From Actinomycetes bacterium (GTDB lineage Bacteria; Actinomycetota; Thermoleophilia; Gaiellales; Gaiellaceae): a stretch of 36,152 nucleotides of DNA. The translations under genes and the position numbers were made by a program. Shown here in pieces: positions 3,155-31,599 of the stretch. Below the pieces are notes generated by a model. It worked only from the letters and a program-made list of their open reading frames with translations, was not told the DNA's origin and searched no databases. Numbering within the stretch: position 1 is the first letter of the stretch; each line of letters starts with the position of its first letter. Location of the stretch: positions 1-36,152 of the forward strand of contig JAOPYX010000118.1 in the NCBI GenBank assembly GCA_025964535.1, read 5' to 3'.

Positions 3155-4158
3155 GGCGCCCGGCATTGCTCGCCCAGCTGGCCGCGCCGTGCGCGCTCGT
3201 CGTCGCGGTCGCGCTGCTCGGGACGCTCGTGTCGCGTTCGAGTGAGGGCTACTTCGTCGACTCGCTCGTGAAGGTCGCGATCGTCGTCGCGCTCTACGTC
3301 TTCATCGGCAACTCCGGTGTGCTGTCGTTCGGGCACGTGAGCTTCGTCGCGCTGGGAGCGTGGACGGCGGGTGTCCTCTCCGTGCCCACCGCGGAGAAGC
3401 CGGCGATCATGCCGAACCTCGCCCACTTCCTGCGCGGCACCACGGTGGGCAACGTTCCCTCGCTCCTGCTCGCTGCCCTCGCAGGCGGTGTGTTCGCACT
3501 CGTCGTCGGGCTCGCTCTCATGCGCCTGTCCGGCCTGGCGGCCGGGATAGCGACCTTCGGCGTGCTCGAGATCACGCACAACGTGCTGCGGTACTACGAG
3601 AAGATCGGCCCGGGTCTCAACACGTTCTCGTCGGTCCCGGAGACGACCGGGCTCTGGCAGGCGTCGATTGGTGCGCTCATTGCCATCGGCGTTGCCTTCG
3701 CCTATCAGCGCAGCCGCTTCGGCCGGATGCTGCGTGCCACGCGCGAGGATGCACCCGCCGCGTCTGCGGTCGGCATCTCCGTCTATCGCCAGCGGCTCGG
3801 CGCGTTCGTCCTGTCGGGCGTGCTCGCGGGTCTCGCGGGCGGCCTCTACGTCCATCTGCTGCCGATGAACACGGAATCGCTCTACCTCGATCTCACGTTC
3901 GTCACGCTCGCGATGCTCGTGGTGGGCGGAGCGACGAGCCTGTGGGGTGCAGTCGTCGGCGCGCTGGCCGTGAGCGCGCTCGACTCCTTCCTCGCGCAGG
4001 CGGAGAACGGCGTCAAGGTCTTCGGTGGCACGCTCGACCTGCCGGCGGGCACGCGACTGGTCGTCGTCGGCGTCCTGATGGCGCTCGTATTGATCCTTCG
4101 CCCGGCGGGCCTCACCGGCGGGCGTGAATTCTCGCTGCCGCGGTGGAGGCGCCCATGA
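3151..4158 (+). CDS. livM: Branched-chain amino acid-type ABC permease, LivM type
   Basis: This 335-residue membrane protein is the second permease subunit. The GTG start overlaps the livH stop by 4 bp (GTGA). The sequence GNSGVLSFGHVSFVALGAW is the LivM signature near the N-terminus. The loop RFGRMLRATREDAPAASAVGISV is the conserved cytoplasmic loop that contacts the ATPase. GGLYVHLLPMN and VVGGATSLWGAVVGA are typical of the C-terminal half. The last codons contain GGAGG, which serves as the ribosome binding site for the next gene, whose ATG overlaps the stop. The five transporter genes thus continue without a break into enzyme genes. Confidence 0.92.
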   Translation: MRRPALLAQLAAPCALVVAVALLGTLVSRSSEGYFVDSLVKVAIVVALYVFIGNSGVLSFGHVSFVALGAWTAGVLSVPTAEKPAIMPNLAHFLRGTTVGNVPSLLLAALAGGVFALVVGLALMRLSGLAAGIATFGVLEITHNVLRYYEKIGPGLNTFSSVPETTGLWQASIGALIAIGVAFAYQRSRFGRMLRATREDAPAASAVGISVYRQRLGAFVLSGVLAGLAGGLYVHLLPMNTESLYLDLTFVTLAMLVVGGATSLWGAVVGALAVSALDSFLAQAENGVKVFGGTLDLPAGTRLVVVGVLMALVLILRPAGLTGGREFSLPRWRRP

Positions 4159-7152: not shown

Positions 7153-7866
7153 GTGGCGAAGACGGAGCCCGACGAGTTCGCGCCGGTCCTGCCGGGTCCG
7201 GCGCCGAGCGACTACGAGCGTTACCTGCGCACCGACGAGCTGCTCGCGCTGCAGAAGGGCCCGGACGAGTGGGCGCACCGCGACGAGCTTCTGTTCCAGA
7301 CCGTCCACCAGTCGTCGGAGCTCTGGCTGAAGCACGCCTGGGTCGAGGCCGAGGAGGCGACGCGGCTCGTCGAGGCGCGCGACCTCGGCGCGGCGAACCG
7401 GCTCCTGCGCCGCTCGACCGCATGCCTGAAGTACGTCGAGGGTTTCCTGGAGCACCTCGAGCTCATGTCGCCGTGGGAGTACCAAGAGGTCCGTCGCGTG
7501 CTCGGCCACGGCTCCGGCTTCGACTCGCCTGGGTTCCGCGAGATCCGCCGTGTGTCGCTCCCGCTCTATTCCGCGTTCGACGACGTGCGCAAGGAGCGCG
7601 GGCTTTCGCTCCTCGACGTCTACGTGCGCGGCCGCGAGCATGAGGAGCTGTATCAGCTCGCGGAGCTCTTGACGGAATGGGACGAGCGCGTGGGGCTCTG
7701 GCGGTACCGCCACTTCAAGGTCGTCGCGCGGATCATCGGCGAGGACGTCGTCGGGACACAGGGAACACCGGTCGAGCTGCTGGCAGGCCTGATCAAGAAC
7801 AAGATGTTCCCCGAGCTCTGGCGTGTGCGTACCGAGCTCACGGAGCTCGCGAAGAAGTCCGATTGA
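7153..7866 (+). CDS. Tryptophan 2,3-dioxygenase family protein
   Basis: The family is haem-dependent and oxidises L-tryptophan to N-formylkynurenine. The 237 residues show the expected blocks. HRDELLFQTVHQSSELWLKH includes the distal His (H52). SPWEYQEVRRVLGHGSGFDS has Tyr110 and Arg114 at substrate-binding positions. RYRHFKVVARIIGEDVVGTQGTP has the proximal haem His (H187). The usual GTGGSSG loop after the haem His is changed to GTQGTPV, and the protein is shorter than most bacterial members (260-300). It may therefore act on a related indole or aromatic amino acid. The GTG start follows the M24 gene by 9 bp, and the stop overlaps the next start (TTGA). Confidence 0.85.
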   Translation: MAKTEPDEFAPVLPGPAPSDYERYLRTDELLALQKGPDEWAHRDELLFQTVHQSSELWLKHAWVEAEEATRLVEARDLGAANRLLRRSTACLKYVEGFLEHLELMSPWEYQEVRRVLGHGSGFDSPGFREIRRVSLPLYSAFDDVRKERGLSLLDVYVRGREHEELYQLAELLTEWDERVGLWRYRHFKVVARIIGEDVVGTQGTPVELLAGLIKNKMFPELWRVRTELTELAKKSD

Positions 7867-8807
7867 TCCCGCTCGACGAGATCCGCCGCGCCCGCGAGCG
7901 GATTGCGGATGCGGTGACGAGGACGCCGCTCATGCGGCTCGAGGTCGACGCGCCGTGCGAGATCTGGCTCAAGCTCGAGTCGCTGCAACCCATCGGCTCG
8001 TTCAAGCTGCGCGGCGCGCTGTCGGCTGTCCGCGCCGCGTCGCCCGCAGAGCTCGCAGGTGGAGTCGTCACTGCGAGCGCCGGCAACATGGCCCAGGGCG
8101 TCGCGTGGGCGGCCCGGGAGGCGGGGGTCCACGCACGGATCGTCGCGCCCGACTCGGCGCCGCGCGCGAAGCTCGACGCGGTCGAGCGTCTCGGCGGCGA
8201 GGTCATCTCGGTGTCGCATGAGACCTGGTGGCAGACGATGGTCGACCGCCGGTACGAAGGAGTCGACGGGCTGTTCGTGCACCCCGTCGAGGACGACGCG
8301 GTGATGGCGGGCAACGGGACGATCGGCCTCGAGCTCGTAGAAGATCTGCCCGATCTCGACGCCGTGGTCACGCCGTGGGGCGGCGGCGGGCTGACGACCG
8401 GCATCGCAAGCGCGGTCAAGGCGCTACGCCCGGCTGCGCGTGTGATCACGGCCGAGCCCGCGACCGCTGCACCGCTCGCTGCGGCGCTCGCGGCCGGTGC
8501 GCCGACGGAGATCGAGTACCAGCCGTCGTTCGTCGACGGCGCCGGAGGGCGTGCGCTGCTCCCGACGATGTGGGATCGCGGCCGGGAGCTCGTCGATACT
8601 GCCGTCGCAGTGCCGCTCGACGAGGTGGCGGCCGCGATGCGTGTGCTCGCGACGCGGGCCAGGGTCGTCGCAGAGGGAGCGGGCGCGCTCGCGCTGGCTG
8701 CCGCGCTGCGCGGCGACGCCGGCGAGGGCCGTGTCGTGTGCATCGTGAGCGGCGGCAACGTCGACGCCGCGGTGCTGTCCCGGATCCTCGCGGGCGAGAC
8801 ACCCTAG
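7863..8807 (+). CDS. Threonine/serine dehydratase-like PLP enzyme (fold type II)
   Basis: This 314-residue protein resembles IlvA/TdcB catalytic domains, which deaminate Thr or Ser to a 2-oxoacid. The PLP lysine is K48 in GSFKLRGAL. NMAQGVAWAAREAG follows, and the phosphate-binding glycine loop is WGGGGLTTG. SGGNVD near the C-terminus is the usual end of the active site. No regulatory ACT domain is present, so it resembles catabolic rather than biosynthetic forms. The TTG start overlaps the dioxygenase stop (TTGA), and the sequence begins at the normal family N-terminus (PLDEIRRARERI). Its 2-oxoacid product could feed the two upstream reductases (inference). The stop is inside the left arm of a long inverted repeat. 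Confidence 0.88.
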   Translation: MIPLDEIRRARERIADAVTRTPLMRLEVDAPCEIWLKLESLQPIGSFKLRGALSAVRAASPAELAGGVVTASAGNMAQGVAWAAREAGVHARIVAPDSAPRAKLDAVERLGGEVISVSHETWWQTMVDRRYEGVDGLFVHPVEDDAVMAGNGTIGLELVEDLPDLDAVVTPWGGGGLTTGIASAVKALRPAARVITAEPATAAPLAAALAAGAPTEIEYQPSFVDGAGGRALLPTMWDRGRELVDTAVAVPLDEVAAAMRVLATRARVVAEGAGALALAAALRGDAGEGRVVCIVSGGNVDAAVLSRILAGETP

Positions 8808-8877
8808 TAACACTCTGTTACAAGGAGGGAGGCGCCGGGAAAACGCGCGGCCTCTGGCCTTGTAACAGAGTGTTACT
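8806..8877. repeat. Perfect 20-bp inverted repeat between convergent genes, each arm itself a dyad
   Basis: The left arm AGTAACACTCTGTTACAAGG (8806-8825) is exactly the reverse complement of the right arm at 8858-8877; 32 bases lie between. Inside each arm GTAACA-CTC-TGTTAC is a second, smaller dyad. GAGGC (8829-8833) and GCCTC (8850-8854) can extend the stem inward. The arms contain the stop codons of both flanking genes: TAG 8805-8807 on +, TAA at 8873-8875 on -. It can act as a bidirectional terminator, but it lacks a T-tract, and the nested symmetry is more than a terminator needs. A mobile hairpin repeat or a protein-binding site are alternatives. Confidence 0.85.
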
Positions 8878-10045
8878 TGGAGAACGAGGCGAGCTCGGCG
8901 ACGAAGCCGTCGACTTCGTCCACCGTGTTGTAGTGGATGAAGCCGACCCGAACCGCGTCCTGCGGATACGGGAGCTTCTCGCGCAGGCCGAGCGAGTACC
9001 AGTTGTCGTGCGCCCAGACGCCGTAGCCGCGTTCGGCCATCGTCGTCGCGACGGTCGCGGCCTCGACGCCGTCCACGTTCAGCAGGAACGTCGGCACGCG
9101 GCCCTCCATCGTCTGCAGGCCGTACACCGTCACGTTCTCCGGCAGCGTCTCGAGGAAGCGCGCGCCGAGCTCTCGCTCGTACGTCTTGAGCACGTCCATG
9201 CCGCCGAGCGACTCCAGGTACGCGATCGTCGCGGAGAAGCCGGCGAGCAGCTCGTACGGAGCGGTGCCCGTCTCGAACTTCCGTCCGACGGGTGTCGAGC
9301 CGGCCGGGCGCGCCTTGTAGGGGCGCCACGACTCGAGCAGCTCGTGCCGTCCGTAGGCCAGCCCGAGATGCGGGCCGCAGAACTTGTACGGCGAGCACAG
9401 GAAGACGTCGCAGCCGATCGCCTGCACGTCGACCGGCTCGTGCGCCGCGTAATGCACTGCGTCGATCCAGGAGAGGGCTCCGGCTTCGCGCGCGAGCTCC
9501 GCGACACGCTGCGCATCCGTGATCGACCCGACGGCGTTCGATGCGAAGACGCAGGCGACGACGCGCGTGCGCTCGTCGAGCTTCCGCTCGAGATCGTCGA
9601 GGTCGAGGCGGAGGTCGTCGGTGACGTCGATCCAGTTGACCTCGAAACCGCGGTCGGCTGCGAGCTCGACCCAGGGTGCGACGCCGCCGTCGTGGTCGAG
9701 GCGGCTGACGAGGATCCGGTCGCCTTCCTTCCAGTCGCGTGACGCGGTGCGGCTGAGCATGAAGTCGAGCGTCGTCATGTTCGTGCCGAAGATCACGTCG
9801 TCGGACGAGCAGCCGAGGAAGCGTCCGGCATCGTCGCGGGCGTTCTTCAAGATCGCCTCGACGCGCTTGCCGGTCTCGTACGGTGCGCCGAGATTGGCGC
9901 TCGCTTCGCGCAGCGCGCGGGCGATTGCGTCCCCGACCTCGTCCGGAACCTGCGACCCGCCCGGTGCGTCGAGGAAGGCGAAGCCGCCTCGAAGGGACGA
10001 GAACCGGTCGCGTGCCGCCTGCACGTCGAGTACCGTCGCGCTCAT
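8873..10045 (-). CDS. Class V aminotransferase-fold PLP protein (cysteine desulfurase-like, VC1184-type)
   Basis: This 390-residue fold type I PLP enzyme has LDAPGGSQVP at 25-34, which is typical of the VC1184-like subfamily. Other features are the PLP Asp195 in WIDAVH and the Schiff-base Lys221 in SPYKFCGPHLG. The C-terminal VRVGFIHYN replaces the Arg-x-Gly-His-His-Cys loop of SufS/IscS, so the desulfurase cysteine is absent and sulfur transfer is unlikely. Kynureninase belongs to the same superfamily and a tryptophan dioxygenase lies just across the convergent junction, but clear kynureninase motifs are not visible. The ATG start has AGGTAGG 8 nt upstream, inside the divergent aldo-keto reductase gene, whose ATG overlaps this one by 2 bp (CATG). 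Confidence 0.85.
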   Translation of the reverse strand: MSATVLDVQAARDRFSSLRGGFAFLDAPGGSQVPDEVGDAIARALREASANLGAPYETGKRVEAILKNARDDAGRFLGCSSDDVIFGTNMTTLDFMLSRTASRDWKEGDRILVSRLDHDGGVAPWVELAADRGFEVNWIDVTDDLRLDLDDLERKLDERTRVVACVFASNAVGSITDAQRVAELAREAGALSWIDAVHYAAHEPVDVQAIGCDVFLCSPYKFCGPHLGLAYGRHELLESWRPYKARPAGSTPVGRKFETGTAPYELLAGFSATIAYLESLGGMDVLKTYERELGARFLETLPENVTVYGLQTMEGRVPTFLLNVDGVEAATVATTMAERGYGVWAHDNWYSLGLREKLPYPQDAVRVGFIHYNTVDEVDGFVAELASFSK

Positions 10046-11015
10046 GGAGCGAGCCTACCTGGGGAACACCGGCATCCGCGTCTCGAAGATCGTGCTCGGG
10101 TGCGGCAATTTCGGAGGCATCGGTTCGTCCCCCGCATTCTTCGGCAGGGGCGAGAGCCGCGACGACGCGTTCGCGATCATGGATGCCGCCTGGGAAGCCG
10201 GCATTACGACGTTCGACACCGCCGACGCGTACGGCGGCGGACGCAGCGAGTCGTGGATCGGCGACTGGCTCCGCACCAAGGGGAGCGCCGTCCGCGACGG
10301 CATCGTTCTGTCGACAAAGACGTTCAATCCGATGGACGACGGCGAGGATCACGGGCTCGCGCCACAGCGGGTGAAGCGCCAGCTCGAGAGCAGCCTGCAG
10401 CGCCTCGGCGTCGACCACGTGCAGATGTACCTCACCCACGAGCCCGATCCCGACGTGCCGATCGTCGAGACGCTGGGTGCATTCGACGAGCTCGTACGCG
10501 ACGGAAAGGTGGGCGCGATCGGCGCGAGTAACGTCGACGGCGCGCAGCTCCGCGACGCGCTCGCCACGGCGCCGGGTGCGCGCTACGAGTGGGTGCAGAA
10601 CTCCTACTCGCTCCTCGACCGCGCAGCGGAGCAGGAGGTACTGCCGCAGTGCGCGGAGGCGGGGCTCGGGTTCACGCCGTTCAGCCCGCTGGCCGGCGGC
10701 TGGCTCACCGGAAAGTACGCGCGGGGCGCCGCGGCGCCCGCAGGCTCGCGAATGACCCAGCGGCCCGAGCCGTACGCGCACTTCCTCGAGGACGACGCAG
10801 TGTGGCGCGGCCTCGACGGCCTCGCGCGCGCCGCTGAAGCGCGTGGCACGAGCCAGGCAGCGCTTGCCATTGCCTGGCTGCTCGGTGACGAGCGCGTGAC
10901 GGCGGTGGTCGTAGGTCCGCGGCGGCCGGAACATCTCGAGCCGGCGCTCGTTGCGCTCGAGCGGCCGGCCACGCCTGCGGAGCGGGACGAGCTCGCCCGC
11001 GGGTTCGCGCGCTAG
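10044..11015 (+). CDS. Aldo-keto reductase
   Basis: This 323-residue NADPH-dependent TIM-barrel reductase opens with YLGNTGIRVSKIVLG, the standard AKR N-terminus, which fixes the start at 10044. The catalytic tetrad is present: Asp58 and Tyr63 (FDTADAYGGG), Lys92 (LSTKTF) and His132 (YLTHEPDPD). GPRRPEHLEPAL is the C-terminal coenzyme segment. The ATG shares CATG with the divergent aminotransferase gene, and the TAG shares CTAG with the convergent kinase gene. No untranslated spacer therefore exists at either end. No clear ribosome binding site precedes the ATG, so the mRNA may be leaderless or the promoter may lie in the neighbour's coding region (inference). The substrate is unknown. Confidence 0.92.
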   Translation: MERAYLGNTGIRVSKIVLGCGNFGGIGSSPAFFGRGESRDDAFAIMDAAWEAGITTFDTADAYGGGRSESWIGDWLRTKGSAVRDGIVLSTKTFNPMDDGEDHGLAPQRVKRQLESSLQRLGVDHVQMYLTHEPDPDVPIVETLGAFDELVRDGKVGAIGASNVDGAQLRDALATAPGARYEWVQNSYSLLDRAAEQEVLPQCAEAGLGFTPFSPLAGGWLTGKYARGAAAPAGSRMTQRPEPYAHFLEDDAVWRGLDGLARAAEARGTSQAALAIAWLLGDERVTAVVVGPRRPEHLEPALVALERPATPAERDELARGFAR

Positions 11016-12406
11016 ACCCGCGTACGCACGTCGCGCCGCTGCGGCACGGGCTCCGCGAGTGGGACCGAGAGCCAGACGTCGGCTCCGCCGCCTTCCCGGT
11101 TCGCCGCGCCTGCTTCACCGTCGTGTGCCTCGGCCACGGTGCGCACGATCGCGAGTCCGAGGCCCGCGCCGGGCCCGCTCCGTGCTTCGTCGGCCCGGCT
11201 GAAGCGCTCGAAGGCGCGCGCCTGAAAGTCGGTCGGGAAGCCGCCGCCCTCGTCGGTGACGTGGATCTCCGCCCGCGCGCCGCGCTCGACGGTCGTGACC
11301 CGGATCGTGCCGGACCCGTGGCGAAGCGCGTTCTCGATCAGGTTCCCCAGCGCCTGCTCCAGTCGCGGTCGGTCGACGTCGACGACGAGACGCGTCTCGT
11401 CCACGTCGATTCGTCGTCCTGCGTCACGTGCGCGGCGCTCGAATCGCGTCGCGATCCCGCCGATCACTTCTCCGAGCCCGATCGTCTCGGGCCGCAGCGT
11501 CAGCACGCCCTCGTCGACGCGTGCGAGCAGAAGCAGGTCCTCGGCGAGCTGGGAGAGCCGGTCGGCCTCTTCGCCCACCGATCGCAACGCGGCTTCGAGC
11601 GACGCTTCCGTGCGCGGCGATTCGAGAGCGAGCTCGACCTCGGCGCGGACGAGCGCCAGCGGTGTTCGGAGCTCGTGGCTCGCATCCGCCACGAAGCGGC
11701 GCTCCCGCGTTCGCACCGTCTCGATCCGGCCGAGCAGCTGGTTCAGTGTGTTGCCGAGCGCGGAGATCTCGTCCCGAGCGCGCGGCACGGGCAGGCGTTC
11801 GGAGAGATCGCGCGCCGAGATCGCATCCGCGCGAGAGCGCATCCGCTCCACGGGCCGCAGCGCAGCGCCGGCCACGAAGTAGCCGATCAGGGACGCGAAG
11901 AGCAGCGCGAACGGCCCGCCGAGGAGGAGCTCCTTTCGCAGATCGAAGAGCGCCTGATCGCGTCCGGCGAGGGAGGCGCCGACCACGACGACGAGCTTCT
12001 GCCCCTGGGCGTTCACCGGGGTCGCGAGCAGCCGCACGGCTTCGCCTCCGTCTCCGGTTCGTGGCACGAGGAGGCTTCCACGCCGCGCGCTGCGGAGTTG
12101 GGCGAGCGTCAGGAGACGCTCCTGATCGAGTCCGGGTGTCTGGTCGAACACGCGACCCCGACTGTCGAGCACCTGTGCGAAGTCGCCGCGCTCCGCCGTG
12201 CCACGCGGCGCGCTCCGCAATCCGCTGTCCGCCTGCTGCACGAGCGCCGACACGTCTGCCGCTCGTGCCCGAAGCCCTTGGTCGACGGTGTGGTCGAGCG
12301 ACGAAGCGAGGCGGTTGACGAGTACGAAACCGGTCGCTGCAAGCACGAGCGCCATCGCGCCCGCGAAGACGAGCGTCAACCGCGTGCGCAGCGGGAGGCG
12401 GCTCAT
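11012..12406 (-). CDS. Sensor histidine kinase (OmpR-system partner)
   Basis: This 464-residue membrane kinase has TM1 at about 10-32, an extracytoplasmic domain of about 125 residues, TM2 at about 160-181 and a HAMP domain at 182-230. The H-box FVADASHELRTPLALVRAE has His244. The N-box is GNLIENALRHG, and the ATP lid has DEGGGFP and GAGLGLAIV. The start ATG at 12406 overlaps the response regulator stop (ATGA), so the two are cotranscribed and coupled. The frame runs on upstream to 12973, but that part overlaps the regulator gene. The sensed signal cannot be read. The stop overlaps the convergent aldo-keto reductase stop (CTAG). Confidence 0.93.
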   Translation of the reverse strand: MSRLPLRTRLTLVFAGAMALVLAATGFVLVNRLASSLDHTVDQGLRARAADVSALVQQADSGLRSAPRGTAERGDFAQVLDSRGRVFDQTPGLDQERLLTLAQLRSARRGSLLVPRTGDGGEAVRLLATPVNAQGQKLVVVVGASLAGRDQALFDLRKELLLGGPFALLFASLIGYFVAGAALRPVERMRSRADAISARDLSERLPVPRARDEISALGNTLNQLLGRIETVRTRERRFVADASHELRTPLALVRAEVELALESPRTEASLEAALRSVGEEADRLSQLAEDLLLLARVDEGVLTLRPETIGLGEVIGGIATRFERRARDAGRRIDVDETRLVVDVDRPRLEQALGNLIENALRHGSGTIRVTTVERGARAEIHVTDEGGGFPTDFQARAFERFSRADEARSGPGAGLGLAIVRTVAEAHDGEAGAANREGGGADVWLSVPLAEPVPQRRDVRTRV

Positions 12407-13083
12407 GGAGCGCCGTCGACGCGCAGCCGGTATCCCGCGCCGCGCACGGTCTCGATCGAGTCGCGCGCGAAGGGACGGTCGATCTTCTCGCGCAGGCGCC
12501 GGATGTGCACCGTGACGACGTTCGATTTGTTGTCGTACGCGATGTCCCAGGCGTTCTCGAGCAGCTCGTACCGTGAGAGCACCTCGCCCGGGCGGCGCAT
12601 GAACAACTCGAGCAACGCGAACTCCTTCGCAGCGAGCTTGATCTCGGCGCCGTTGCGCGAGACGCGCCGCGTCGCAGGATCGAGACGCAGGTCGTCGACC
12701 TCGAGCACCGCTGGGCGCTCGGATGGCCCGCGCCGGATGATCGCGCGCAGCCGCGCGCGCAGCTCCGCGATCGAGAACGGCTTCGTGAGGTAGTCGTCGG
12801 CGCCGGCGTCGAGACCCTGGATCCGGTCCTCGACCGCGTCGCGTGCCGTCAGCATCAACACCGGTGTCCACACGCCCGAGTCGCGCAGGCGCTCGCAGGT
12901 CTGGAAGCCGTCGAGCCCGGGAAGCATCAGGTCGAGGACGATCGCGTCGTACCGGTGCGCCTGTGCCATCCACAACGCGTCCTCGCCGGTCGGCGTGAGA
13001 TCGGCGGCGCTACCGCGGTCACTGAGGCCGCGACGAAGAAGCGGGCCGAGCTTTACGTCGTCTTCGACGACCAGCACGCGCAC
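12403..13083 (-). CDS. OmpR/PhoB-family response regulator
   Basis: This 226-residue transcription factor has an N-terminal receiver domain with the acidic pair E7-D8-D9, the phospho-acceptor Asp51 (VLDLMLPG), the switch Thr79 (MLTARD) and Lys101 (LTKPFS). A C-terminal winged helix (about 130-226) contains EFALLELFMRRPGEVLSR and the recognition-helix region NVVTVHIRRLREKI. The GTG start at 13083 is at the normal family N-terminus (RVLVVEDD). It is divergent from the small secreted protein gene at 13223. The spacer has TGAAC direct half-sites 11 bp apart, the spacing expected for OmpR-family dimers, so it probably regulates that gene and itself (inference). Confidence 0.93.
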   Translation of the reverse strand: MRVLVVEDDVKLGPLLRRGLSDRGSAADLTPTGEDALWMAQAHRYDAIVLDLMLPGLDGFQTCERLRDSGVWTPVLMLTARDAVEDRIQGLDAGADDYLTKPFSIAELRARLRAIIRRGPSERPAVLEVDDLRLDPATRRVSRNGAEIKLAAKEFALLELFMRRPGEVLSRYELLENAWDIAYDNKSNVVTVHIRRLREKIDRPFARDSIETVRGAGYRLRVDGAP

Positions 13084-13105
13084 CGCTCTACCGTGCCTGG
13101 ACGAA

Positions 13106-13123
13106 GGTGAACTCCAGATGAAC
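13106..13123 (+). promoter_or_regulatory. Direct half-sites 11 bp apart, likely response-regulator operator
   Basis: TGAAC occurs at 13108-13112 and 13119-13123, exactly 11 bp apart, within GGTGAACTCCAGATGAAC. One helical turn between direct half-sites is the usual OmpR/PhoB binding pattern. The site is between the divergent regulator and the secreted protein gene. Confidence 0.5.
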
Positions 13124-13154
13124 GCCTCTGCCACCAAAGGGTATCGCGTCACAT

Positions 13155-13179
13155 CCAGTTCACCTGAGCCTCCTACGTT
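13155..13179 (+). promoter_or_regulatory. Inverted half-site and -10-like box upstream of the secreted protein gene
   Basis: CCAGTTCACC (13155-13164) is the inverse of the GGTGAACT element at 13106. Just downstream CTCCTACGTT contains TACGTT (13174-13179), which fits a -10 box 49 nt before the ATG. The same CTCCTAC stretch occurs 48 nt before the ATG of the paralogue at 31270. Confidence 0.4.
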
Positions 13180-13222: not shown

Positions 13223-13591
13223 ATGCGCAAGCGCATCACCAAGCTCGGCGTCACGATCGCCGCGCTCGCAGCACTCGCCGTCGGCGGGTCCGCACTCGCG
13301 TCGGCGGCGTCGAAGACCACGCCTGCCCCCGCAGCTCCGGCTCCGGCGGCTCCGGTCGCACCGGCCGACACGACGACGACGCAGGAGAGCTCGACGGAGG
13401 CCGCCGATTCGGCCACTGACACGGACACCCTCCAGCAGGGCGACCAGTCTGCCCCCGACACCGCGTCGGCCGGCGACACCGCCGACACGGCGAGCGAGGC
13501 AGCTGCCTCCGAGACCGGCCCGAGCGACGGGCCCGGCGGCCACGCCGACCCGGCCGGTGCCGTGGACACGCAGCAGGAAGGCCAGAACTAA
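13223..13591 (+). CDS. Small secreted low-complexity protein with C-terminal GPGGHAD motif
   Basis: This 122-residue protein has a signal peptide (MRKRITKLG, then a hydrophobic stretch to about ALASA at 24-28). A Pro/Ala linker follows, then a Thr/Ser/Ala/Asp/Glu-rich acidic region, and the C-terminus has SDGPGGHADPAGAVDTQQEGQN. AAGGAGG at 13208-13214 sets the ATG at 13223; the upstream part of the open frame is not used. No enzyme motif is seen, and the body is probably disordered outside the membrane. A paralogue at 31270-31599 has the same plan and the same PSDGPGGHAD motif. The divergent two-component system is the likely regulator. The function is unknown. Confidence 0.8.
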   Translation: MRKRITKLGVTIAALAALAVGGSALASAASKTTPAPAAPAPAAPVAPADTTTTQESSTEAADSATDTDTLQQGDQSAPDTASAGDTADTASEAAASETGPSDGPGGHADPAGAVDTQQEGQN

Positions 13592-17451: not shown

Positions 17452-19083
17452 GTGAGCGCAACCATGTCCTCACGGCGGCACGCGCCGCGGCTCTCCACGC
17501 AGATCGTCCTGCTCCAGCTCGCACTGATCCTGCTGACGGTGGGAGCCGGCCTCGCAGTCTCCCTCGTCGAGGCGCGCAGGCAGTTCGACCGCTCTGCGGG
17601 CAACGAGTCGCTCGCCATCGCGCGCAGCGTCGCGGGCATACCGGCCATCCGGCGCGCGTTCGTCTCGCGCTACCCGCCGCGCCAGATCCAGCCGATCGCC
17701 GAGCGCATCCGGAAGCTGACGGGCGCGTCGTTCATCGTCGTCGCGAACCGCCAGGGCGTTCGCTATTCGCATCCGAATCCCGCGCTGATCGGGCAGCGGT
17801 TGACCGACGGCGCCATTCCGCTCTCGGGACGCACCTGGGTGGGCGTCGAGGACGGATCACTCGGCCGCTCGATGCGCGCGAAGGTGCCGCTCCTCGACGA
17901 CTTCGGTGACGTGATCGGTTTCGTGTCGGTCGGGGTGCTCGAGAAGACGCTCAGCGCCCGGCTGCGATCCGATCTGCCGGTGATCCTCATCCCGCCGCTC
18001 TTCGGGCTGTTGCTCGGCGCGGCGGGCTCGGTGCTTCTGGCCCGACGAATCAAGCGCCAGACGTTCGGGCTCGAGCCGGACGAGATCGCGGCCCTGCTCG
18101 AACAGCGTGAGGCGATGCTGCACGGTGTGCGCGAGGGCGCGATCACCGTCGATGCGAGCGGCCGCATCACGCTGCTGAACGACGAGGCGCAGCGGCTGCT
18201 CGGTCTCGACGCGTCAGCGCTCGGCGAGCACCTGGCCGACGTCGTGCCGGCCGGCCGTGTGCGGGACGTCCTCATCGGGCGCGTCGAGGGAGCAGACCAG
18301 GTGGTCGTCGTCGACGACCGCGTTCTCGTGACGAATCGTATGCCGGTAGAAGTGCGGGGGAGACCGATCGGGGCGGTCGTCACCCTGCGTGACCGCACCG
18401 AACTGGAAGGCCTCCTGCGTGAGCTCGACGACGTGCGCAGCCTTGCCGACGCGCTTCGCGCGCAGGAGCACGAGTTCTCGCACCGGCTTCACGTGATCGG
18501 CGGCTTGATCGAGCTCGATCGGAACGACGATGCGGTGCACTTCATCAACAGCTCCTCGCTCCTGCACCAGAAGCTCGCGGCGTCGCTCGTCGATCGCGTC
18601 GGCGACCCGATCCTCGTCGCCCTGCTCCTCGGCAAGGCATCGGTCGCGAGCGAGCGCGGCATCGACCTCGAGGTGTCGGCGCTGACGAAGCTGCCCGAGG
18701 ATCTCGGCGACGTTCGAGGTCTCGTCACGGTGCTGGGGAACCTGATCGACAATGCGCTCGAATCCGTCGCGGCCGGTAGCGACTCCGGCGGGCGCGTCGA
18801 GATCACCCTGTCGATCGAGGACGACGACCTCGTGATCAAGGTGCATGACTCGGGCCCTGGGGTCGATCCCACGCTCGCAGCCGAGATCTTCCGCGACGGG
18901 TACACGACCAAGGTGGCGAACGGTCCGGCGGGCCGCGGGCTCGGCCTCGCCCTCGTGAGCCAGGCAGTGCGGAGGCGCGGCGGGAGCATCTCGGTCCGCA
19001 ACGAGGAAGGGGCGCTCTTCACGGTGACGGTGCCTCTGCGCGGTCGCGTTCGCCCTGAAGCGGGCGCGCTGGTGGCGACGTGA
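17452..19083 (+). CDS. CitA/DcuS-type sensor histidine kinase
   Basis: This 543-residue membrane kinase has TM1 at about 17-38, an extracytoplasmic Cache/PAS-like sensor domain, TM2 at about 175-197, a cytoplasmic PAS domain (about 215-315) and a kinase core. The sensor domain has VRYSHPNPALIG at 103-114, the carboxylate-binding signature of CitA/DcuS (Arg104, His107). The phosphorylation box EHEFSHRLHVIGGLIEL contains His340. The ATPase has GNLIDNALESV, HDSGPGVDP and GRGLGLALVSQ. An ATG at 17464 is an equally possible start; neither has a clear ribosome binding site. The ligand is probably a di- or tricarboxylate (family knowledge). The regulator gene overlaps the stop (GTGA). Confidence 0.93.
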   Translation: MSATMSSRRHAPRLSTQIVLLQLALILLTVGAGLAVSLVEARRQFDRSAGNESLAIARSVAGIPAIRRAFVSRYPPRQIQPIAERIRKLTGASFIVVANRQGVRYSHPNPALIGQRLTDGAIPLSGRTWVGVEDGSLGRSMRAKVPLLDDFGDVIGFVSVGVLEKTLSARLRSDLPVILIPPLFGLLLGAAGSVLLARRIKRQTFGLEPDEIAALLEQREAMLHGVREGAITVDASGRITLLNDEAQRLLGLDASALGEHLADVVPAGRVRDVLIGRVEGADQVVVVDDRVLVTNRMPVEVRGRPIGAVVTLRDRTELEGLLRELDDVRSLADALRAQEHEFSHRLHVIGGLIELDRNDDAVHFINSSSLLHQKLAASLVDRVGDPILVALLLGKASVASERGIDLEVSALTKLPEDLGDVRGLVTVLGNLIDNALESVAAGSDSGGRVEITLSIEDDDLVIKVHDSGPGVDPTLAAEIFRDGYTTKVANGPAGRGLGLALVSQAVRRRGGSISVRNEEGALFTVTVPLRGRVRPEAGALVAT

Positions 19084-19763
19084 TCCGCACTGTCGTCGTC
19101 GACGACGACTTCATGGCTGCCTCGGTGCATCGAGGGTTCGTGGAGCGCGTGCCGGGTTTCTCCGTCGTCGGCGAGGCGACATCCGGTGGCGATGCCCTCG
19201 CACTCGTCGAGAAGCACCGCCCGGACCTTCTGCTGCTCGACATCTATCTGCCCGACATGAGCGGCATCGACGTGATGCGACACCTTCGCGCGCGCGACGA
19301 CGTCGAAGTCGACGTGATCGCGATCACCTCCGCGAAGGACGTGAAGACGCTCCGCGGTGCGATGCACCAGGGCGTCGTCCACTACCTCATCAAGCCGTTT
19401 TCGTTCAACATCTTCCGCGAGCGTCTGGAGAGCTACGCCGCGCTGAAGGCGCGCCTCGACGGGATCCATCACGCCGACCAGGGCCAGGTGGACCGACTGT
19501 ACGCACTGCTGCGCTCGCGCGGCGAGGACTCGCTTCCGAAGGGGATCTCCGCTCCCACGCTCGAGCTCGTCGCCGACGTCGTGCGCGAAGCGACGGCGGA
19601 GGTCTCGGCAGCAGAGGTCGCGCACCGTTCAGGGATCAGCCGCGGCACCGTGCGGCGGTATCTCGAGTTTCTCGCCGAGGCGGGCACGCTCGAGCTCACG
19701 CTGCGGTACGGGTCGGCCGGGCGCCCCGAGCACCTGTACCGCTGGCTCGGCGTTCCCGTCTGA
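19080..19763 (+). CDS. CitB/DcuR-type response regulator
   Basis: This 227-residue protein has a receiver domain with D8-D9-D10, the phospho-acceptor Asp54 (LLLDIYLPDMSG), TSAKD and the switch Lys in LIKPF. The C-terminal DNA-binding region has VSAAEVAHRSGISRGTVRRYLEFLAEAGTLEL, and YGSAGRPEHLYRW ends the protein in the manner typical of CitT/DcuR. It is translationally coupled to the kinase by a GTGA overlap. Since the NMT1/SsuABC-type importer operon is divergent from this pair, it is the obvious candidate target (inference). Confidence 0.93.
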   Translation: MIRTVVVDDDFMAASVHRGFVERVPGFSVVGEATSGGDALALVEKHRPDLLLLDIYLPDMSGIDVMRHLRARDDVEVDVIAITSAKDVKTLRGAMHQGVVHYLIKPFSFNIFRERLESYAALKARLDGIHHADQGQVDRLYALLRSRGEDSLPKGISAPTLELVADVVREATAEVSAAEVAHRSGISRGTVRRYLEFLAEAGTLELTLRYGSAGRPEHLYRWLGVPV

Positions 19764-31145: not shown

Positions 31146-31157
31146 GGCACGCGTCCA

Positions 31158-31175
31158 CGTTAGAGGCGCGTTAGA
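31158..31175 (+). promoter_or_regulatory. Direct half-sites CGTTAGA 11 bp apart, likely response-regulator operator
   Basis: CGTTAGA occurs at 31158-31164 and 31169-31175, exactly 11 bp apart. The layout matches the TGAAC pair at 13108/13119, which precedes the paralogous gene. The site lies about 95-112 nt before the ATG at 31270. Confidence 0.5.
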
Positions 31176-31192
31176 CGCTGACGTGGCGCTTA

Positions 31193-31227
31193 TCTCTAAC
31201 GAGGCTCCAACCCGCGACTCCTACCGT
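31193..31227 (+). promoter_or_regulatory. Inverted CGTTAGAGA half-site and -10-like box
   Basis: TCTCTAACG (31193-31201) is the inverse of the upstream half-site. CTCCTACCGT (31218-31227) contains TACCGT, which fits a -10 box 48 nt before the ATG and shares CTCCTAC with the promoter region at 13170-13176. Confidence 0.4.
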
Positions 31228-31269: not shown

Positions 31270-31599
31270 ATGCGTGCACGGATGACAAGGTTGTTTGCGG
31301 GGCTCGGCGTCTTCGGCGCTCTCGCGTTCGGCGGTGCGGCACTCGCCGGCGCGGCGAACACGCCCGCGCCCGCCCCGGTGAGCCCTCCGGCTGCGGTCGA
31401 CACGACGCAGTCGGGCGATCAGACGGCACCCGACGCCGCCGGTGCGGCTGCCGAGTCCAGCACGGAGTCGGCGTCGACCGAATCCGCGTCCACGGAGTCC
31501 GCGTCTTCGGAGTCGGCGGCTCCGAGCGACGGGCCTGGCGGTCACGCCGACGACCCGAACAACCCGAACGTCGACTACCAGTTCCAGGGCCAGCAGTAA
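31270..31599 (+). CDS. Small secreted low-complexity protein with C-terminal GPGGHAD motif (paralogue)
   Basis: This 109-residue protein has a signal peptide (MRARMTRLFAGLGVFGALAFGGAALAGA). A Pro/Ala linker follows, then a Ser/Thr/Glu-rich part with three tandem TESAS-type units, and the C-terminus is PSDGPGGHADDPNNPNVDYQFQGQQ. AAAGGAG at 31257-31263 sets the ATG at 31270; an in-frame upstream ATG adds only 11 residues and lacks a site. It has the same plan as the protein at 13223-13591, including DQTAPD/DQSAPD and PSDGPGGHAD. No enzyme motif is seen. It probably stays in the cell envelope or outside. Its function is unknown; regulation by an OmpR-type regulator is inferred from the promoter repeats. 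Confidence 0.8.
   Translation: MRARMTRLFAGLGVFGALAFGGAALAGAANTPAPAPVSPPAAVDTTQSGDQTAPDAAGAAAESSTESASTESASTESASSESAAPSDGPGGHADDPNNPNVDYQFQGQQ

Follow-up and report, generated by a model that had tools for sequence, protein, structure and literature searches.

How does a genome keep two closely related promoters apart when they are built to the same plan? The stretch of DNA analysed here (36,152 nucleotides from an Actinomycetes bacterium of the Gaiellaceae, referred to as the window) codes for two small secreted proteins that share the motif DGPGGHAD, and upstream of each gene short half-sites are repeated with the same spacing but with different letters. A sequence-only reading of the window suggested that two OmpR-type regulators with different specificity use one promoter design. 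The features on which this question turns are listed below.

11012..12406, minus strand: sensor histidine kinase of system 1 (HAMP, HisKA and HATPase_c domains, from Pfam)
12403..13083, minus strand: OmpR-type response regulator of system 1 (Response_reg and Trans_reg_C domains, from Pfam), GTG start at 13083, recognition helix SNVVTVHIRRLR (from helix alignment)
13090..13095, minus strand: candidate -10 box of the system 1 regulator gene, CACGGT, 6 nt 5' of the GTG
13106..13123, plus strand: left pair of promoter 1, on the regulator-gene side, GGTGAAC-N4-GATGAAC, 11-bp period
13147..13164, minus strand: right pair of promoter 1, in reversed orientation, top strand CGTCACA-N4-GTTCACC
13174..13179, plus strand: -10 box of promoter 1, TACGTT, 9 bp past the right pair, with the ATG 49 nt on
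13223..13591, plus strand: paralogue 1, small secreted protein of 122 aa with C-terminal DGPGGHAD
31158..31175, plus strand: left pair of promoter 2, CGTTAGA-N4-CGTTAGA
31195..31212, minus strand: right pair of promoter 2, in reversed orientation, top strand TCTAACG-N4-TCCAACC
31222..31227, plus strand: -10 box of promoter 2, TACCGT, 9 bp past the right pair, with the ATG 48 nt on
31270..31599, plus strand: paralogue 2, small secreted protein of 109 aa with DGPGGHAD and no adjoining regulator gene

Promoter anatomy

The two secreted proteins are 50% identical, and a Pfam search of the secreted proteins of the window matched no family. Each promoter has four half-sites. Two lie on the top strand as a left pair; the other two, the right pair, are on the opposite strand and are followed after 9 bp by the -10 box. 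The position of the right pair is identical in promoters 1 and 2. The 11-bp direct repeats noticed previously (TGAAC at 13108 and 13119, CGTTAGA at 31158 and 31169) are present as described, and so are the CTCCTAC common to both promoters and the boxes TACGTT and TACCGT, 49 and 48 nt before the ATG. The single inverted copy per promoter described in the sequence-only reading is actually one member of an inverted 11-bp tandem pair, which was recognised from the relatives and supersedes it. The shift of about one helical turn reported for that copy is an artefact of pairing non-equivalent copies, since the second member in promoter 1 had been matched with the first member in promoter 2.

The repeats in both promoters are real and go beyond chance. 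Scored as the agreement among four 7-mers, two of them 11 bp apart and two 11 bp apart in reverse complement, promoter 1 reaches 18 and promoter 2 reaches 19, values attained by 0/600 dinucleotide shuffles in each case, and with repeat spacings of 8-10 and 12-14 bp the four-site score is just 12-14. When both strands of the whole 36-kb window were scanned, the top score of 19 occurred solely at promoter 2, and 18 was found at promoter 1 and in one other stretch at about 32.3-32.4 kb (two offsets).

The two regulators

The regulator coded at 12403-13083, which is divergent from paralogue 1, is the sole OmpR-type regulator seen in the window. Its scores of 97.4 bits with PF00072 and 93.5 bits with PF00486 place it in the OmpR/PhoB class. 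Membership of system 1 in the PhoB or CopRS families was rejected because the NCBIfam cut-offs are not reached: the regulator scored 201 bits with the PhoB equivalog TIGR02154 (cut-off 296.2) and 249.8 bits with CopR/CzcR TIGR01387 (curated cut-off 279.2), and the best NCBIfam match of the kinase, the heavy-metal sensor subfamily TIGR01386, scored 253 against a cut-off of 292.6. The window also codes for a two-component pair of another type at 17452-19763, with an sCache_3_2/PAS sensor and a DpiA-like regulator, adjoining genes that resemble ABC transporter genes. Elsewhere in the window, at 7153-10045, open reading frames lying close together resemble by eye tryptophan 2,3-dioxygenase and kynureninase, of the kynurenine pathway.

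A second regulator is coded in the same genome (G000:C52:15626-16297, the C52 regulator) and is followed by a kinase gene, which makes up a complete OmpR-type system. It shares 70% identity with the window regulator over 223 aa and 87% with its orthologue in a relative, G048, and when it was used as query against its own genome nothing beyond the window regulator passed E 1e-85. Upstream of the gene, its own promoter carries a CGTTAGA-type operator, GATTAGAGAGCGATTAGACGCTGATGAGGCGTTGATCTCTAACGGCAGGCTAAACGG, that matches positions 31156-31214 of the window at 39/59 positions (random mean 15.8, sd 3.5; next best in the locus 29), and the distance from start to start of the inner half-sites is 25 bp in the window, in C52 and in G048. 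In the C52 operator the outer half-site, GCTAAAC, is a weak one, and the operator is marginal in the unaided four-site test, with 15/600 shuffles reaching its score. No small secreted gene is found at the locus beyond the operator; another gene ends there, so the absence is not due to a contig edge. In G048 (locus L011, G048:C200) a GPGGHAD-family gene that lacks its tail, being truncated near the end of the contig, is divergent from the regulator gene, and the CGTTAGA letters recur. The genome is a metagenome assembly of 3.19 Mb, 76.6% complete and with 2.1% contamination, and because it is incomplete and partly contaminated the assignment of C52 to it depends on the assembly itself and on the operator match.

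Comparison of the window regulator, the C52 regulator with its CGTTAGA-type operator and the G048 orthologue thus favours the earlier suggestion that two OmpR-type regulators would read one promoter design with different specificity. We consider it very likely that each small secreted-protein gene is activated by its own OmpR-type system through the shared design, with the split between regulators 1 and 2 as proposed. The phosphorylated regulator would occupy, as a tandem dimer, the 11-bp direct repeat whose end is 9 bp from the -10 box, and the bound dimer would substitute for a -35 element and lead to activation, while the half-site pair in the opposite orientation would serve the divergent regulator gene, where there is one, in autoregulation. 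Regulator 1, of the window, is predicted to read TCAC half-sites (GGTGAAC) and regulator 2, of C52, to read TAAC/TAAT half-sites (CGTTAGA). Paralogue 2 and its operator would have become separated from regulator 2, a relocation that we infer from one relative, G048, which retains the divergent orthologous regulator together with the GPGGHAD-family gene.

The left pair of promoter 2 could be read in another manner, as a relic of the divergent regulator promoter that remained on C52 after paralogue 2 had moved away or been duplicated, so that the right pair alone would work. In divergent loci the left pair faces a regulator gene, and here its neighbour is an unrelated short-chain dehydrogenase gene; the C52 operator, moreover, is a partial copy. 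However, the left pair is the best-preserved part of the element, with two perfect 7-mers, and left half-sites are kept in several relatives that have no divergent regulator (L010, L012 and L026), which makes a relic possible but rather unlikely.

Recognition helices and half-site letters

In the complex of Mycobacterium tuberculosis PhoP with DNA, TCACAGC-N4-TCACAGC is bound by a tandem dimer, in which Asn212, Val213, Glu215, Ser216, Tyr217 and Tyr220 contact bases and Ser219 touches a phosphate (PMC4832192). With PhoP numbering assigned here from the conserved SNVV...YLR frame, the helix of the window regulator reads N212 V V T215 V H217 I R219 R220 and that of the C52 regulator N212 V I A215 V Y217 V N219 Y220. 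The two helices therefore differ at 215 (T/A), 217 (H/Y), 219 (R/N) and 220 (R/Y), at and beside base-contacting positions, and it is for this reason that different specificities are proposed. When the half-sites are placed in register, TCAC gives way to TAAC, and the altered base corresponds to the one touched by Tyr217 and Tyr220 in the PhoP complex.

Exact 11-bp repeats at the regulator-gene promoters of 118 related regulators point in the same direction. TCAT repeats accompany 48/78 regulators with D215/R219 and 12/16 with E215/R219, TCAC repeats accompany 5/6 with T215/R219, and TAAC/TAAT repeats are found with all four regulators that have A or N at 215 together with Y217, N219 and Y220. 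TTA half-sites accompany two regulators with G219, and inspection by eye adds two further ones, from other groups (L050 and L053). When regulators with and without R at residue 219 were tabulated two by two against the changed base, the numbers were 76/1 and 6/6. Residue 219 thus appears to track the changed half-site base, with the qualification that the four N219 rows may be one clade. It would not be sufficient by itself, since the regulator L243, which has N219 with H217 and H220, keeps TCAC half-sites. An origin of N219-with-TAA on two occasions was considered and is unsupported, a tree that holds the four sequences together being as good or better (AU p 0.77 for the N219 regulators as one clade).

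It could be argued that the window regulator alone, with relaxed specificity, reads both promoters and that CGTTAGA is a weak variant of GGTGAAC. The half-sites in register differ at few positions, the layout and the -10 box are common to both promoters, and no second OmpR-type regulator was seen in the window itself. The existence of a dedicated C52 regulator with the same half-site type at its own promoter speaks against this idea, as does the CGTTAGA operator that adjoins an orthologue of that regulator in G048, and a TAA tandem pair was found with none of the approximately 77 R219 regulators scored. We regard a single regulator for both promoters as improbable.

Relatives, comparable systems and the wider module

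Relatives of the secreted proteins occur in 14/34 genera of the family at a loose threshold, and a species-level genome collection gave 44 loci that range from Thermoleophilia-like MAGs to Streptomyces and Chloroflexota. Their shared traits are a signal peptide, a DTDNVQQGDQ-like stretch and a C-terminal DGPGGHAD...DHQ tail. An OmpR-type regulator or histidine kinase is coded in the fetched flank of 39/44 loci, and within 300 bp in 35/44. Absence of half-site conservation upstream of orthologues would have spoken against the shared design, and conservation was what we found: in 49 non-redundant upstream regions there are 86 exact 5-mer direct repeats at 11 bp where 8.8 were expected (z 17.0), the next-highest z values being 4.3 at 10 bp, 2.4 at 33 bp (three periods) and 2.3 at 12 bp. 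De novo search for the four sites is weak in many distant relatives, with z under 1.5 in about 20/49, and for that reason we claim the full four-site layout just where it was scored and the 11-bp period generally. A third letter set is seen in Streptomyces cirratus (L051), where GCTGAGA occurs four times without a mismatch in this arrangement.

Two Streptomyces loci, L051 and L078, have the GCTGAGA four-site layout between the OmpR-type regulator and the secreted gene, and these organisms are culturable. In G048 a sibling of the secreted proteins (L026 / L112, G048:C189, ~3804-4136) has a PepSY domain (PF03413, 26.6 bits, cut-off 24) in place of the DGPGGHAD tail. A TGAAC-type operator lies upstream of L026, which together with the PepSY tail indicates that the operator is used for secreted outputs of more than one type.

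These comparisons also bear on whether the two promoters are alike simply because duplicated genes descend from one ancestor, with no pair of functioning regulators behind them. The genes are indeed paralogues, and promoter sequence can be inherited passively, but passive inheritance would be expected to keep letters and spacing alike or to lose both; instead, the spacing holds from phylum to phylum and the half-site letters vary together with the recognition helix, and we find descent by itself very improbable. Hardly credible at all is the idea that the inverted repeats are no operator and form instead a terminator or an RNA hairpin for the dehydrogenase gene upstream: although CGTTAGAG and CTCTAACG are complementary, the folding is no better than that of shuffles (z -0.96; 29/200 as good), no T-run follows downstream, and regulator genes are likewise preceded by these half-sites and by direct repeats with the 11-bp period.

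The control by two dedicated systems that we favour has partial counterparts among known regulators. The PHO box of Streptomyces PhoP is made of 11-bp GTTCACC direct repeat units, and promoter 1 has the same GTTCACC half-site in 11-bp direct repeats; unlike in that system, the window regulator falls below the PhoB model TIGR02154 and no phosphate genes were seen nearby. The M. tuberculosis PhoP operator (TCACAGC-N4-TCACAGC; 5ED4, PMC4832192) shares with both promoters the 7-bp motif with a 4-bp spacer, hence an 11-bp period, and occupancy by an OmpR-family tandem dimer, which is proposed here. Its TCAC core is present in promoter 1 (GTTCACC) and absent from promoter 2 (TCTAACG), which has TAAC for TCAC, and the SNVV...YLR helix aligns residue for residue with that of the window regulator, which matches PhoP significantly, with no claim of orthology. 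Differences are that the pairs here stand in two opposite orientations and that the targets are small secreted proteins.

CpxRA-CpxP offers a likeness of arrangement, without a claim of homology: cpxP is divergent from cpxRA and its product inhibits CpxA (PMC6737893), and here too an OmpR-type system is divergent from a small exported-protein gene that carries predicted sites of its regulator. CpxP, however, is periplasmic and chaperone-like, whereas the proteins described here are of low complexity with a DGPGGHAD tail. By this analogy the secreted protein would be an output of its system and perhaps a feedback factor, and a CpxP-like feedback on the sensor is plausible. CopRS/CzcRS are the best-scoring NCBIfam families (TIGR01387/TIGR01386) for both proteins of system 1, but both scores are under the curated cut-offs and, in an unsystematic look, metal-resistance genes were not noticed adjoining.

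Few cases are known that show how the target sites of paralogous response regulators stay separate, and the window looks like a natural example in which a control system was duplicated and its DNA code changed to avoid cross-talk. Sequence across many genomes suffices to read the fixed spacing, the varying letters and the regulator genes that match, and these suggest a testable residue-to-base code in which, at 219, R goes with C, N with A and G with T in some contexts, and, at 215, T goes with C and D or E with T. There is about an even chance that we are dealing with a widespread, undescribed module of Actinomycetota and Chloroflexota, in which an OmpR-type system is joined to a small secreted protein with a DGPGGHAD or PepSY tail and the letters of a rigidly spaced operator diversify with helix positions 215 and 219. 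If this is true, the module would let the DNA recognition of OmpR-family regulators be read as a natural code and would document the insulation of duplicated systems. The comparisons also point to a conserved secreted family without a named domain, which travels with two-component systems and may feed back on the sensor. In the open literature we found nothing that matches this module or an OmpR helix-operator code, an absence that is weak evidence.

The regulator-gene side of the operator follows the same geometry. Of the 118 related regulator genes, 60 have a NANNNT box whose end lies exactly 6 nt upstream of the start codon and 22 have one at 7 nt, and because of this distance the regulator genes, 12403-13083 included, are probably transcribed as leaderless mRNAs. 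The gap between half-site and -10 box at regulator-gene promoters is 9 bp in 40/68 and 8-10 bp in 64/68, the same gap as in the window promoters, so that the rule of half-site, N4, half-site, N9 and -10 holds on both sides.

As to the breadth of the two regulons, CGTTAGA-N4-CGTTAGA with at most 2 mismatches has 4 matches in the 3.19-Mb genome, two of which are the window pairs, and the reversed-pattern control also has 4; genome matches being no commoner than in the control, a wide CGTTAGA regulon is not indicated. Across 129 genomes of the order, TCTAAC-N5-TCTAAC was about as frequent as its reversed control and was uninformative as a regulon search. The pattern GTCAC-N5-GTTCAC-N10-TANNNT has two perfect matches in the assembly and none for the reversed control, and both lie upstream of small secreted genes, namely paralogue 1 and a third such gene on C45. 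This third gene (L003, G000:C45:854-1126) is preceded by GTCAC-N5-GTTCACC-N9-TAGGGT, and since its right pair is the same as that of promoter 1 it probably belongs to the targets of the window regulator as well.
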